Assembly (NCBI GenBank): GCA_016183805.1
Contig: JACPDX010000013.1
Span: forward strand, 62,001 to 126,000
Direction of reading: 5' to 3'
Source: Bacteroidota bacterium
GTDB taxonomy: Bacteria; Bacteroidota; Bacteroidia; Flavobacteriales_E; Vicingaceae
Length of the DNA stretch: 64,000 nucleotides
Every line of letters starts with the position of its first letter. Position 1 is the first letter of the stretch. Under the pieces are notes generated by a model, which worked only from the letters and a program-made list of their open reading frames with translations, was not told where the DNA came from and did no database searches. Positions 4,442 through 34,872 of this stretch are shown here, in pieces. Made by a program: the position numbers and the translations under genes.

Positions 4442-4533
4442 CAGTTCACAGTTATCAGTTCACAGTCAACAAAAATCTATAAGTCAATAAAATAAAAAAT
4501 AATAAGAAAGCAGAAAACCTCAAACTTGAAACG

Positions 4534-5580
4534 TTGAACAGCATCATAGAGCGATATAAAAAGATTAGAAAAAAAGGGCTTTTGGAGAAAAAGTACAAGG
4601 GCAAGTATGCTTTTGTAGGAATTGGTAATCATTCGTTAAACAACCTTTATCCCGTTCTAAATTATTTAAAAGTTGATTTAAAATACATTGTTGCCAAAAG
4701 TGAAGATACACTTGAATTAATTAGAACCAATTTTGAGCATGTTATTGCAACTACAAACCTCAACGATGTTTTAAACGACCCTGAAATTAAAGGTGTTTTT
4801 GTATCCTCACATCCATCCTCACATTTTGGTTTAGCAAAACAAATTATTGCGAGTAACAAAGCTTTGTTTATCGAAAAACCTCCTTGTTCGAGTTTAACAG
4901 AACTAAACGAATTGATTACAACACAACAAAAAACTAGTTCCACTGTTTTAACAGGGCTTCAGAGAAGATATTCTCCTTTGTACAATATATTGAAAAACAA
5001 GGTAAATGAAGCCAATTATTACACTCTAAAGTATAAAACAGGGGGATATCCAGAAGGTGATGAGTTGCTAGATTTATTTATCCATCCGTTAGATGCTACT
5101 TTCTATTTATTTGGTGATGGAAAAATAGAACATGTAAAAGCGATAAAAGGAAAAGGAACTGTTGTTTATTTAGCACAAATTCAACACGCCAATGGTGTTG
5201 TTGGAAGCATTGAACTTTCTACCGATTACTCGTGGACCGAAGCCAAAGATGAATTAATAATAAATACACCAAAAGGAGAATACATTACTGAAAATACTAG
5301 CAAATTGGTGTTTTGTTCTAAACCTAGAACATTGATGAACATTCCTTTAGAAAAAGTAAAATCATTTTTACCACAAACCACAACGCTTTATCAGCAAAAC
5401 AATTTTTTACCGGTAAAAGAACATAATCAATTATACTCAGCAGGGTATTACAATGAAATAGAAGCATTTTTACAAGCGTGCGAAAAAGGAATTCCGACAA
5501 AAAATAACTCTCCATTAAGTGCTTTAAAAAGTACTTTTGAGGCTATAGAAGAATTAAGAAAGGTAAAGGTTAGAGGTTAG
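4534..5580 (+). CDS. Gfo/Idh/MocA family oxidoreductase
   Basis: FVGIGNHSLNNLYPVL N-terminal Rossmann-like region; ALFIEKPPCSSLTEL (EKP motif); starts at a TTG. Confidence 0.75.
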   Translation: MNSIIERYKKIRKKGLLEKKYKGKYAFVGIGNHSLNNLYPVLNYLKVDLKYIVAKSEDTLELIRTNFEHVIATTNLNDVLNDPEIKGVFVSSHPSSHFGLAKQIIASNKALFIEKPPCSSLTELNELITTQQKTSSTVLTGLQRRYSPLYNILKNKVNEANYYTLKYKTGGYPEGDELLDLFIHPLDATFYLFGDGKIEHVKAIKGKGTVVYLAQIQHANGVVGSIELSTDYSWTEAKDELIINTPKGEYITENTSKLVFCSKPRTLMNIPLEKVKSFLPQTTTLYQQNNFLPVKEHNQLYSAGYYNEIEAFLQACEKGIPTKNNSPLSALKSTFEAIEELRKVKVRG

Positions 5581-5608
5581 AAGACCGAAGTGTAGCTGAC
5601 TTTAAAAT

Positions 5609-10083: not shown

Positions 10084-10242
10084 TTTATTTAGTCCCCAAC
10101 AAATTCAACGTAATTCTTCGAATTGAAAATTTCAAAAACTCAACTTTTTTGGAATATAATCCAAAAATATCGCAACTTTTTTGGAATTGGTTGCTAATTG
10201 GAGATTTGTGTACTGAAGACTGCAAACTGAAGACTGAAAACC

Positions 10243-11547
10243 CTACCTCAACACATTAATCCGTTCGGCATCAAGTTTAATAAAGATAAACAGCAGAATG
10301 GTAAACGACCACAACGAAGAACCTCCGTAGCTTATAAAAGGTAACGGAATACCAATAACAGGAGCTAAACCAATAGCCATTCCGATATTAATTAAAAAGT
10401 GGAAAAACAGGATGGAAGCCACTGCATAACCATAAATACGTGAAAAAATGGAGCGTTGCCGTTCGGCTAAAAAGATGATGCGAAGAAACAGTCCGACGTA
10501 CAAACAAATCAGCACAAACGAGCCTAAAAAACCCCATTCTTCGCCAATGGTGCAAAAAATAAAATCGGTGCTTTGTTCAGGCACAAAATCGAACTTGGTT
10601 TGAGTTCCTTCTAAAAATCCTTTACCTGCAAAACCTCCTGAACCAATAGCAATTAACGATTGGTTTACGTTATAACCTGCACCTTTTGGGTCGGATTCTA
10701 TTCCTAGCAGCACGTTGATTCGTTTAGACTGGTGTGGTTCCAGCACATTTTCGAAAATATAATCGACACTAAAAATTAAACCGGCAGAAAATATAAATCC
10801 GGCAACAACAATCATCCAAAATTTTTTGGTTCTTTGTGTAACATAGATAATTAAGGCTGCAATTAGTGCTAAAATAACAATCAATAATTGATCTCCGGTA
10901 AGGACTAAATTAGAGAAAAAGGTAAAGGTGTTGATTCGCATTAATAATGAAATAACAAATAAAAAGGCAGTGTATAAGGCTATTAATAAAACGTTGCCGG
11001 ACAAACCTTCGCGATACAAAACAAAAACAAACGAAGCATACACTAACGTTGAACCTGTATCGTTTTGAAGTAAAATTAAAATAGCAGGAGCCCCGATTAT
11101 TACGGATGCAATAAGTTTAGTTTTTAAATCCTGCATTTTAATGTTCATGGTGGAGAGGTATTTTGCCAGAGCCAATGCAGTGGCAAATTTTCCAAACTCA
11201 GAGGGTTGTAGAGCAAAACTTCCTATTTTAAACCACGATTTTGAGCCTTTAACCTCTGCTCCAAAAAGTAAAACTCCGATTAAGGTGAGTAATAAACCAA
11301 TAAAAATAGGGTAAGCAAAAGCAGTATAAAATTGTGCATCAATTAACAAGATAATTAATGCTATAACAAATGCTGCTGAAATCCATAACAATTGCATACC
11401 ATATCGTTGGGAAATATCAAAAATACTATGATGTTCCTCATTATAAACAGCAGCGTAAATACTTATCCAACCTATAAAAACAAGCACAACATAAAGAATA
11501 ACTGTGATGTTATCAATGTTGGCAAATATGTTTTTTTGGTTTCTCAT
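10243..11547 (-). CDS. rodA: Rod shape-determining protein RodA (SEDS family)
   Basis: SEDS motifs (GAEVKGSKSWFKIGSFALQPSEF, PEQSTDFIFCTIGEEWGFLG, GIPLPFISYGGSSL); in the mre operon. Confidence 0.95.
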   Translation of the reverse strand: MRNQKNIFANIDNITVILYVVLVFIGWISIYAAVYNEEHHSIFDISQRYGMQLLWISAAFVIALIILLIDAQFYTAFAYPIFIGLLLTLIGVLLFGAEVKGSKSWFKIGSFALQPSEFGKFATALALAKYLSTMNIKMQDLKTKLIASVIIGAPAILILLQNDTGSTLVYASFVFVLYREGLSGNVLLIALYTAFLFVISLLMRINTFTFFSNLVLTGDQLLIVILALIAALIIYVTQRTKKFWMIVVAGFIFSAGLIFSVDYIFENVLEPHQSKRINVLLGIESDPKGAGYNVNQSLIAIGSGGFAGKGFLEGTQTKFDFVPEQSTDFIFCTIGEEWGFLGSFVLICLYVGLFLRIIFLAERQRSIFSRIYGYAVASILFFHFLINIGMAIGLAPVIGIPLPFISYGGSSLWSFTILLFIFIKLDAERINVLR

Positions 11548-15795: not shown

Positions 15796-15906
15796 TCGTT
15801 TTCTATATTGTTTTTAGTTGAAGTGAGGTAAATTTATGATTAAAATATTCAATTTCTATTATTGTCATTTTTTTTGTTAAACACTTTATTGTTAGTTTAG
15901 TTTTTG

Positions 15907-15967
15907 GTTGGAAGCCCGAAGCCCGAAGTCCGAAGTACCTTATGCCTTCTGACTTCCGTCTTCCAAC
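15907..15967. repeat. Intergenic hairpin of the GAAGTC/CGGAAGAC family
   Basis: GTTGGAAGcccgaagcccgaagtccgaag ... cttctgacttccgtCTTCCAAC. Confidence 0.75.
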
Positions 15968-15972
15968 TTCTA

Positions 15973-18958: not shown

Positions 18959-19119
18959 TAACCGCAGAGAACGCTGAGTTTTTCGCAGAGAACCGCAAAG
19001 TTTTTTTGCTTTCTTTTTTTGTTTCTTCTTTTCTCTGTGAATTCTTAAAATTCTTGGCGGTTATTTTTTAATTTTTTAACCGCAGAAAACACGGAGTTTT
19101 TACGCAGGGAACCGCAAAT
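18959..19119. repeat. ACCGCAGAGAACGC-type intergenic repeat, two direct copies
   Basis: taaccgcagagaacgctgagtttttcgcagagaaccgcaaa and taaccgcagaaaacacggagtttttacgcagggaaccgcaaa. Confidence 0.8.
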
Positions 19120-19132
19120 TCTTTTTACTTCC

Positions 19133-19162
19133 GACTTCGGTCTTCTGACTTCGGTCTTCCAG
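19133..19162. repeat. GAAGTC/CGGAAGAC family copy
   Basis: cgacttcggtcttctgacttcggtcttcca. Confidence 0.7.
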
Positions 19163-25736: not shown

Positions 25737-26273
25737 ATGGAAACCAGAAGACCGTTCAACCTCAATAAGTGGATAGAAGACAACAAAGACAAACTGAAAC
25801 CCCCGGTGGCTAATAAAAATTTATACAATGAATCGGGCGATTACATTGTAATGATTGTTGGTGGACCCAATGCACGAAAAGACTATCATTTTAACGAAAC
25901 TGAAGAATTGTTCTATCAGCTAAAGGGCGATATTGAAGTAACCATTCAGGAAAACGGTAAAGCCGTGAAAATACCTATCCATGAAGGCGATATGTTTTTG
26001 TTGCCGGCAAATATTCCGCATTCACCGGTTCGTTCCGAAGGTTCAATTGGTTTGGTAATTGAACGCAAACGAAAAGGAACCAGCTTAAAAGATGGTTTGA
26101 TGTGGTTTTGCGAAAAATGCAACAACAAACTGTACGAAGAACGCTTTACCTTAGACGATATAGAAAAAGGGTTTTTGCCAACATTTACCCGTTTTTACAA
26201 TTCTGTTGATTTACGAACCTGCAAAAGTTGCGGACATGTAATGGAATCAGACCCTAAATTTACTAATATGTGA
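25737..26273 (+). CDS. nbaC: 3-hydroxyanthranilate 3,4-dioxygenase
   Basis: RRPFNLNKWIEDNKDKLKPPVANKNLY; GGPNARKDYHFNETEELFYQLKGD; C-terminal Cys pairs CEKC / CKSC. Confidence 0.93.
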   Translation: METRRPFNLNKWIEDNKDKLKPPVANKNLYNESGDYIVMIVGGPNARKDYHFNETEELFYQLKGDIEVTIQENGKAVKIPIHEGDMFLLPANIPHSPVRSEGSIGLVIERKRKGTSLKDGLMWFCEKCNNKLYEERFTLDDIEKGFLPTFTRFYNSVDLRTCKSCGHVMESDPKFTNM

Positions 26274-26274
26274 T

Positions 26275-26320
26275 TGGGTAGTGGTGAGGAGTGGGTGATG
26301 GGTGGAGAGTGAGTGATGGG
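26275..26320. repeat. Left terminal repeat of four-helix-bundle cassette
   Basis: gggtagtggtgaggagtgggtgatgggtggagagtgagtgatggg; inverse of the right-hand repeat. Confidence 0.75.
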
Positions 26321-26336
26321 TATTAATTATTGTGAA

Positions 26337-26699
26337 ATGAGTGACGAAAAAAATTATAAAAATTTAGATGTGTGGAAAGAAGCTAGGAAACTTGTTTCCT
26401 TAATTTATGTGCTAACCAATGAATTTCCTGAGGATGAAAAATTTGGGTTAACCTCTCAAATTAAACGAGCAGTAATTTCCGTTCCATCAAATATAGCCGA
26501 AGGAATGGGTAGAAATTCGAGTAAAGAAACTCGCCAGTTTTTTTACATTGCAAAAGGTTCTTTATATGAAATTGAAACGCAAATTTATTTAGCATTAGAT
26601 TTAAATTTCATCACAGAGGAAAAAGCTGAACAGATTTTTCCTCAAATTATTACCGTTCGTAAATTAATAATCGGTTATATCAAATATTTAGATAGATGA
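26337..26699 (+). CDS. Four helix bundle protein (S23 / 23S rRNA intervening-sequence protein family)
   Basis: KNLDVWKEARKLVSLIYVLTNEFPEDEKFGLTSQIKRAVISVPSNIAEGMGRNSSKETRQFFYIAKGSLYEIETQI; start taken as MSDEKNY. Confidence 0.93.
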   Translation: MSDEKNYKNLDVWKEARKLVSLIYVLTNEFPEDEKFGLTSQIKRAVISVPSNIAEGMGRNSSKETRQFFYIAKGSLYEIETQIYLALDLNFITEEKAEQIFPQIITVRKLIIGYIKYLDR

Positions 26700-27775
26700 C
26701 TTCACTCACAACTCACCACCCATCACCCATCACTCACCACTCACCACTCACCACTCGTAGAATAAACGGTCACGGACATATCTTACCCGAACCCAATCAA
26801 ATCCCTCAATTTATGAAGGACAAGAAATTGTTTTGGATTGACGATGACAAAAAATTTATGCGTCAGGGCGATTGGAGCAGACCCATTACCGACCCGAGTT
26901 TTTTCTTAAAAGAAAAGCTGGAATGGATGGAGAAAAATAAGATTGACCACGGTGTAATGCTTAATTTATCGCAGGTGTATTGCAACGGATGGACAAAACA
27001 AGATGCTGTTGATGCCATTCGCTGGCAAAACGATTTTAATGCCGAAATACAACACCAATTTCCCGATAAATTTACCAACGGCTTTGTGGTTCAGCCCTTG
27101 TACATGGACGAAGCTTTAAAAGAAATAGAGCGTTGTGTAAATAAACTCTACTTAAAATTGTTGTGTTTACCCACTCACTTTTTAAATGCTAAAAACGAGT
27201 GGATTTCGGTTGCCGACGAAAGCTGTTTTCCAATTTACGAATTGGCAAACAAATACAAATTAGCCATAGAAATTCATCCTTATGATGCCGAAAAAATGGT
27301 GGCACTGAAAGACAATTTTTGGCGTTTTCATTTGGTATGGATGATGGCACAAAGTGCCGACACGTTGCATTTGTTTACCTTAAAAAACATCCCGAATTTA
27401 TTCCCTGACATTCGCACTTGTTTTGCACACGGTTGTATGCTGGGGCAAGCCAATTATGGCAGACGAGTACAAGGTTTTGAAGGCAGACCCGATTTGTTTA
27501 AAGGAACAGAAAGTCCAAAAACCACACTTGGTCATCCCAACTTGTTTTTTGATACGTTGGTACACGACCCTTACACTTTGCAATTGTTAAAGCACCGAGT
27601 AGGCGTACCACAAATTATTGCCGGACTCGACGACCCTTACCCGCTTGGCGAAATGGAATCTGTTCCGAATTCTTATCCAGGAAAAGTAATCGACGATGCC
27701 GTAAAACTTCATATTTTAACCGAAAAAGATGCCACCAACATTTGGCACGATAACGTGTTGAAGTGGTTGGGGTAG
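26696..27775 (+). CDS. Amidohydrolase, aminocarboxymuconate-semialdehyde decarboxylase (ACMSD)-like
   Basis: INGHGHILPEPNQIPQFM (HxH), FAHGCMLGQANYGRR, IIAGLDDPYPLGE; follows 3-hydroxyanthranilate dioxygenase. Confidence 0.88.
   Translation: MTSLTTHHPSPITHHSPLTTRRINGHGHILPEPNQIPQFMKDKKLFWIDDDKKFMRQGDWSRPITDPSFFLKEKLEWMEKNKIDHGVMLNLSQVYCNGWTKQDAVDAIRWQNDFNAEIQHQFPDKFTNGFVVQPLYMDEALKEIERCVNKLYLKLLCLPTHFLNAKNEWISVADESCFPIYELANKYKLAIEIHPYDAEKMVALKDNFWRFHLVWMMAQSADTLHLFTLKNIPNLFPDIRTCFAHGCMLGQANYGRRVQGFEGRPDLFKGTESPKTTLGHPNLFFDTLVHDPYTLQLLKHRVGVPQIIAGLDDPYPLGEMESVPNSYPGKVIDDAVKLHILTEKDATNIWHDNVLKWLG
26701..26757. repeat. Right terminal repeat of four-helix-bundle cassette (inside the ACMSD-like ORF)
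   Basis: cactcacaactcaccacccatcacccatcactcaccactcaccactcaccactcg. Confidence 0.8.
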
Positions 27776-34758: not shown

Positions 34759-34760
34759 AG

Positions 34761-34857
34761 AAGCCAGAAGTCGGAAGACCTAAGACACAAAAAAATAAAA
34801 GCCCGAAGACGGAAATTTGAAGAAAGGGAACTTACTTCGGACTTCCGTCTTCGGGCT
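34761..34857. repeat. GAAGTC/CGGAAGAC family hairpin
   Basis: agaagtcggaagacc then AGCCCGAAGACGGAA ... TTCCGTCTTCGGGCT (perfect 15-bp arms). Confidence 0.85.
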
Positions 34858-34872
34858 TCTAACTTAAAAAGT

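Follow-up and report, generated by a model that had tools for sequence, protein, structure and literature searches.

The S23 gene between nbaC and an ACMSD-like gene of this Bacteroidota genome is enclosed by mirrored arrays of a degenerate heptamer that is specific to the locus, and the operon transcript can fold into a long stem. The cassette lies within a stretch of 64,000 nt that was analyzed as a whole (the window), and S23 loci from many other genomes were included in the comparison. We propose an element of the intervening-sequence (IVS) type, i.e., a transcribed hairpin with S23, whose location is the spacer of a protein operon and not a 23S rRNA gene, and we judge the chances of this explanation being right to be about even. 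An IVS-type mRNA hairpin was proposed because, among established systems, the 23S rRNA IVS described for Coxiella comes closest.

The S23 cassette in the nbaC-ACMSD operon

The features of the cassette, which is located between nbaC and ACMSD and not in a 23S rRNA gene, are listed in Table 1. To quantify the resemblance of the arms, the upstream 110 nt were aligned locally to the reverse complement of the downstream 103 nt. The score of 34 exceeded the maximum of 21.5 found in 1,039 windows of equal geometry elsewhere in the 64 kb, as well as the maximum of 30.5 in 2,000 Markov resamples of the downstream flank. The first-pass annotation had quoted two repeat sequences as approximate reverse complements of each other; both were found at the positions given and the complementarity was confirmed. 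The repeat unit, given there as 9-10 nt, is actually 7 nt, with the consensus GTGAGTG in both arms and degenerate tandem copies. The 484-nt cassette RNA was predicted to fold with a minimum free energy of -138 kcal/mol, in comparison to -100.2 (SD 6.1) for shuffled sequences (z -6.24), with the arms pairing as the closing stem.

Table 1. Features of the S23 cassette and two solo heptad hairpins, in window coordinates.
Feature	Position	Strand	Basis
nbaC, 3-hydroxyanthranilate 3,4-dioxygenase, upstream host gene	25737..26273	+	NF009763 260.7 bits, TIGR03037 223 bits, PF06052
Left heptad arm, units GTGAGTG / GTGATGG / GTGGTGA, G-rich on the S23 sense strand	26276..26320	+	Sequence, alignment to right arm
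S23 / 23S rRNA-intervening-sequence-type four-helix bundle gene, 120 aa	26337..26699	+	PF05635 132 bits, TIGR02436 123 bits, PDB relative 2gsc
Right heptad arm, CACTCAC units, reverse complement of left arm	26703..26756	+	In frame with ACMSD as N-terminal extension
Predicted RNA hairpin, arms as closing stem, S23 frame in loop	26275..26746	+	MFE vs shuffles
ACMSD-like amidohydrolase, downstream host gene, ATG overlaps S23 stop codon (ATGA)	26696..27775	+	PF04909 (Amidohydro_2)
Solo heptad hairpin, word GAAGCCC/GAAGTCC	15904..15972	.	Period-7 scan
Solo heptad hairpin between convergent genes	34759..34865	.	Period-7 scan

The ATG at 26337 is most likely the start of the S23 gene. The downstream gene, whose amidohydrolase domain is consistent with ACMSD and whose product is 84-87% identical to proteins of two congeners, is most simply read from the ATG at 26696. 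As this ATG overlaps the S23 stop codon, the right arm encodes an N-terminal extension, TSLTTHHPSPITHHSPLTT (26696-26757), and the element has probably given the ACMSD enzyme this extension. The right-hand repeat is present after the gene as annotated at first, but on this reading it is more than a spacer.

The assignment of the four-helix gene to S23/IVP was upheld by the profile scores in Table 1, while its resemblance to Avd is only distant (28.7 bits), and the reading that the gene is not a pathway gene was supported as well. The solved S23 relatives 2gsc and 2rld have five chains each, which is compatible with an S23 pentamer. A search against Rfam gave a single chance-level match outside the arms, and no PADLOC defence model matched.

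S23 flanks in other loci and phyla

The source genome contains six PF05635 genes. Mirrored short repeats flank at least four of the six copies (L001, L002, L003, and L005), each with one word of its own; examples from the genome are GTCATTGGTCATTAG, AACAATGTAACAATT, and TTACGATTTACGATT. No terminal word was common to the six copies, and the arm signal was weak for L004 and L006.

The PF05635 family was present in all 46 genomes of the family and in 236 of the 297 Bacteroidota genomes sampled. Looking for inverted repeats at the flanks of many four-helix-bundle genes, as the first-pass annotation had suggested, gave a strongly positive result. Among 127 non-redundant Bacteroidota S23 loci, the median arm complementarity was 17.0 within a locus and 11.0 for swapped flanks (p 1e-34), and 60 loci lay above the 95th percentile of the swapped pairs, while direct (non-inverted) flank matches were near background. 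The flank autocorrelation was 0.41/0.43 at lag 7 and 0.37/0.39 at lag 14, over a background of 0.27, and the best period was 7 in 90 and 8 in 18 of the 127 loci (9 and 10, respectively, in the distant-flank control). Flanks that are both mirrored and heptad were found at 33% of the Bacteroidota S23 genes and 54% of those in other phyla, but at only 1.2%, 0.7%, and 0% of other genes (n = 877). Little mirror or heptad signal was seen for some loci, such as L004, L006, and L072; these may have decayed, or their S23 may be of another kind. Of 124 cases, S23 had the same direction as the upstream gene in 122 and as the downstream gene in 116; among control pairs, 121 of 151 were co-directional.

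Outside Bacteroidota, heptad arrays were recognized by eye on the flanks of 10 out of 10 cyanobacterial plasmid loci and were mirrored in most of them, with words such as GGGTGTA/TACACCC and GGGAACA/TGTTCCC; L188 and L195 were less regular. Three of the ten plasmid copies are antisense to their neighbours, so the sense-orientation rule is not universal. A further 60 S23 loci came mostly from other phyla (cyanobacteria, alphaproteobacteria, Acidobacteria, Planctomycetes, Chloroflexi, Clostridia, Ignavibacteria, others, and one archaeal MAG). Period 7 was found in 49 of them, and the complementarity was 19.75 as opposed to 9.5 for swapped flanks. These loci are a sample and not a census: they come from a scan in which relatives, at least 587 in number, were ranked against an alignment dominated by cyanobacteria and the best 80 were kept, and in many cases they are MAG records whose names may be wrong. 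The same S23 architecture, spelled differently at each site, was thus seen across about a dozen phyla.

Two neighbourhoods recurred among these loci. On two cyanobacterial plasmids (L188 and L194) the S23 element separates cas6 from cas4 in a CRISPR operon, and the words of the two differ. In four Rhizobiales loci (L239, L240, L248, and L277) S23 stands directly before a nuoD-like gene, as judged by eye, with two kinds of words.

Residence and possible loss at the junctions

When the junctions were mapped onto the S23 tree, 26 changes were needed, in comparison to a minimum of 21 and a shuffled mean of 61, i.e., the S23 genes of one junction mostly form near-clades, which span genera. The dN/dS of S23 was 0.04-0.15 in 13 orthologue pairs, indicating purifying selection. 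Taken together, the near-clades and the low dN/dS point to long residence of a constrained protein. The words differ between orthologues, yet the arms matched better within a locus than across orthologues in 14 of 18 junction groups (p 0.0018). Arm words were shared slightly more within than between genomes (2.87 vs 2.03 8-mers, p 2e-5). Mismatches between the arms showed no excess of G-U over A-C types (118 vs 135; strict, 23 vs 34). Thus, there is no sign that selection keeps the RNA stem itself, which suggests that the matching is kept at the DNA level and not chiefly by RNA-stem selection.

Junctions of nbaC and ACMSD without the cassette, which the first-pass annotation had proposed to look for among relatives, were found in the same genus and family. 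The congeners G001 and G002 lack S23 there, while two genomes of another genus, G015 and G068, carry it (loci L014 and L083); a single S23 origin at this junction was not rejected (p-AU 0.43). In congener G001 the nbaC-ACMSD spacer (ACMSD locus L008) has a hairpin, CCCCTAACCCCTCCGAAGGAGGGG, and an arm-like sequence, AACTTTGAACTTGAAACCTGAAAC, possibly a relic. At the sdhA-sdhB junction S23 is present in G006, while G019, with flanks 94-97% identical, has a 54-nt spacer resembling a short heptad-like hairpin. At the S23-less junctions the relatives were either too distant or carried another hairpin, so that gain and loss were inseparable.

Some further patterns were considered and set aside. Re-occupation of sdhA-sdhB by a second S23 lineage was hinted at by the tree, but a single clade was not rejected (p-AU 0.70). 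The groups J03 and J04 probably represent shared neighbourhoods and not exact junctions, as judged from their sequences. A heptamer skeleton with a YAG core reached 2.39 bits vs 1.76 against column shuffles; it became marginal once each junction contributed a single word and the null was a dinucleotide (Markov) model (3.28 vs a mean of 3.03 and a maximum of 3.30), and it is not claimed. Period 8 as an inherited trait, with 7 changes for 11 loci and no shuffle control, is suggestive only.

These data bear on whether the cassette could be a DNA transposable element of the MITE type, in which the heptad arrays would be the terminal sites of a recombinase acting in trans and S23 its cargo or helper. 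The discrete ends, the high copy numbers (up to 15 or more in a genome), the patchy presence at the nbaC-ACMSD junction, the slight excess of words shared within genomes, and S23-less hairpins resembling deletion derivatives would all fit such an element. On the other hand, the copies of one genome have no common terminal sequence, S23 forms near-clades by junction under purifying selection, the sense orientation is nearly uniform in Bacteroidota although a transposon would be expected to have no preferred orientation, and no obvious target duplication was seen at the junction of the cassette in the window. We consider a MITE-type origin unlikely. Of the non-autonomous mobile cassette annotated at first, the discrete cassette stands, while its mobility, though possible, was not supported. 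Instead of terminal repeats common to all copies, the arms have a word that is particular to the locus, a transposon signature was looked for and not seen, and the empty junctions could have arisen by loss just as by gain.

Long residence, purifying selection, and sense orientation within operons would also be expected if S23 were an autoregulator domesticated by the host, with a hairpin that adjusts termination, mRNA decay, or operon coupling, and other operon spacers of the same genome do hold heptad hairpins without S23. However, close relatives lack S23 at the same junction, the host operons are unrelated in function (kynurenine, sdh, and cas), and the cyanobacterial plasmids have antisense copies. 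A host regulatory module of this kind appears distinctly improbable to us.

Heptad arrays without S23

In 443 kb of the source genome, 33 intergenic period-7 arrays were detected, in comparison to 0-4 at lags 4, 5, 8, 10, and 11; there were 6 at lag 13 and 43 at lag 14, which is twice the period. The majority of these solo heptads do not adjoin S23, and in operon spacers several of them make up a complete hairpin. Within the window, intergenic arrays or hairpins of period 7 that lack S23 are found at 521-554, 4487-4518, 5559-5590, 10207-10243, 15904-15972, 19121-19160, and 34759-34865, and the word GAAGACC/GAAGTCG occurs at many sites of the source genome. A dispersed repeat of the type AACCGCAGAGAACGCTGAG...CGCAGAGAACCGCAAAG, at 18960-19120 of the window, occurs twice.

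Candidates for other cargo genes between heptad arms were rejected, as the clear non-S23 matches were ordinary operon genes with heptads in both spacers. At L179 (G000:C36, 9972-13341) three consecutive genes, the first of which resembles an acyl-CoA dehydrogenase, have spacers filled by TTTAGAG heptads, without S23.

No heptad arrays were found in 384 kb of 20 S23-negative genomes, while 346 kb of 20 S23-rich genomes contained 22, which fall in six to seven genomes; the difference is suggestive only, because it is confounded by G+C content (0.50 in the S23-negative and 0.33 in the S23-rich set). The abundance of solo heptads in the source genome would be expected if heptamers were a favoured unit of replication slippage that S23 merely tolerates. 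Such slippage has been proposed for bacterial heptamer repeats, and an excess of heptamers among bacterial intergenic repeats has been published (PMC4692102, with earlier surveys cited there). Against a mutational by-product stand the strong tie to S23 genes in particular, the mirrored placement, and, with the reservation on G+C content, the lack of arrays in the S23-negative genomes, and we regard it as a poor prospect. A retroelement related to the diversity-generating-retroelement (DGR) accessory Avd, with repeats made by a reverse transcriptase in trans, is hardly credible: it can draw on weak Avd and bAvd model matches (28.7 and 24.9 bits), and there is one RVT_1 match in the source genome, but 33 of the 46 family genomes, all of which have PF05635, lack an RVT_1 match, including G010 with 12 S23 copies and G006 and G007 with 9 each, so that a trans-acting standard reverse transcriptase is unlikely and largely refuted.

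Relation to known systems and proposed mechanism

Cyanobacterial STRR are degenerate intergenic tandem 7-mers. Heptamers have also been described as TAACTGA in Beggiatoaceae, cyanobacteria, and Bacteroidetes (PMC4679880) and as GGGAATC and GGGGA(C/T)T in Xanthomonas and Nostoc (PMC4692102). The arms share with these repeats the degenerate intergenic tandem 7-nt units; however, the published arrays are mostly direct, whereas those described here are mirrored around S23 genes. A search of their text found no mention of four-helix proteins in PMC4679880 or PMC4692102, nor of S23 in PMC4679880.

In the 23S IVS of Coxiella burnetii, a 28-bp terminal stem closes a loop that contains the S23 frame, excision is by RNase III, and tandem GACAGAT heptamers with a strain-variable copy number precede the S23 start; the protein was reported as probably not made in vivo, and both the origin of 23S intervening sequences and their mobility were called unclear (PMC4990558). 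The operon cassette resembles this IVS in its S23 gene in the loop of a terminal-inverted-repeat stem, its similar size, and its tandem heptamers, but differs in its location in a protein-coding operon, in a heptamer that each locus has as its own, and in an S23 under purifying selection instead of decay. With Avd it shares the four-helix bundle and a weak profile match, which is far below the cut-off (80 bits), and most family genomes are without a reverse transcriptase match. In common with MITEs and REPIN-like elements, the S23 elements are short, intergenic, bounded by inverted repeats, and accompanied by gene-less versions, but the copies do not share a terminal sequence, the arrays have period 7, and vertical residence is long.

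Returning to the IVS-type element, we infer the function of S23 and the origin of its copies to be as follows. As is established for the 23S IVS, an RNase III-type enzyme would excise the stem from the polycistronic transcript and in this way free the S23 message from the flanking cistrons. An S23 oligomer would act on the hairpin via its shape and not its sequence. The arm match could be kept at the DNA level by slippage of the tandem units together with copying across the hairpin. The elements would have been long inherited at a junction and sometimes lost, leaving or coexisting with solo heptad hairpins. More broadly, and only tentatively, S23 and heptad hairpins may form one genetic system in many phyla, in which the protein would recognize or help to build mirrored 7-nt hairpins of any sequence, and the 23S IVS, the operon S23 genes, the S23-less hairpins, and perhaps the 'orphan' heptamer repeats would be its products.

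Heptamer repeats and S23 in the 23S IVS were already known, while the mirrored heptamer arms around S23 genes outside rRNA appear to be new: a full-text search, with most subscription papers and preprints outside its coverage, found no literature linking heptamer arms to such S23 genes. S23/IVP is very common in some phyla, such as Bacteroidota, yet unexplained, and for the intergenic heptamer repeats, although reported on several occasions, no cause has been given. The unusual feature is that the spelling shifts while the period and the mirror symmetry persist. The shared anatomy joins S23 genes, 23S intervening sequences, and heptamer repeats, and makes each of them testable.
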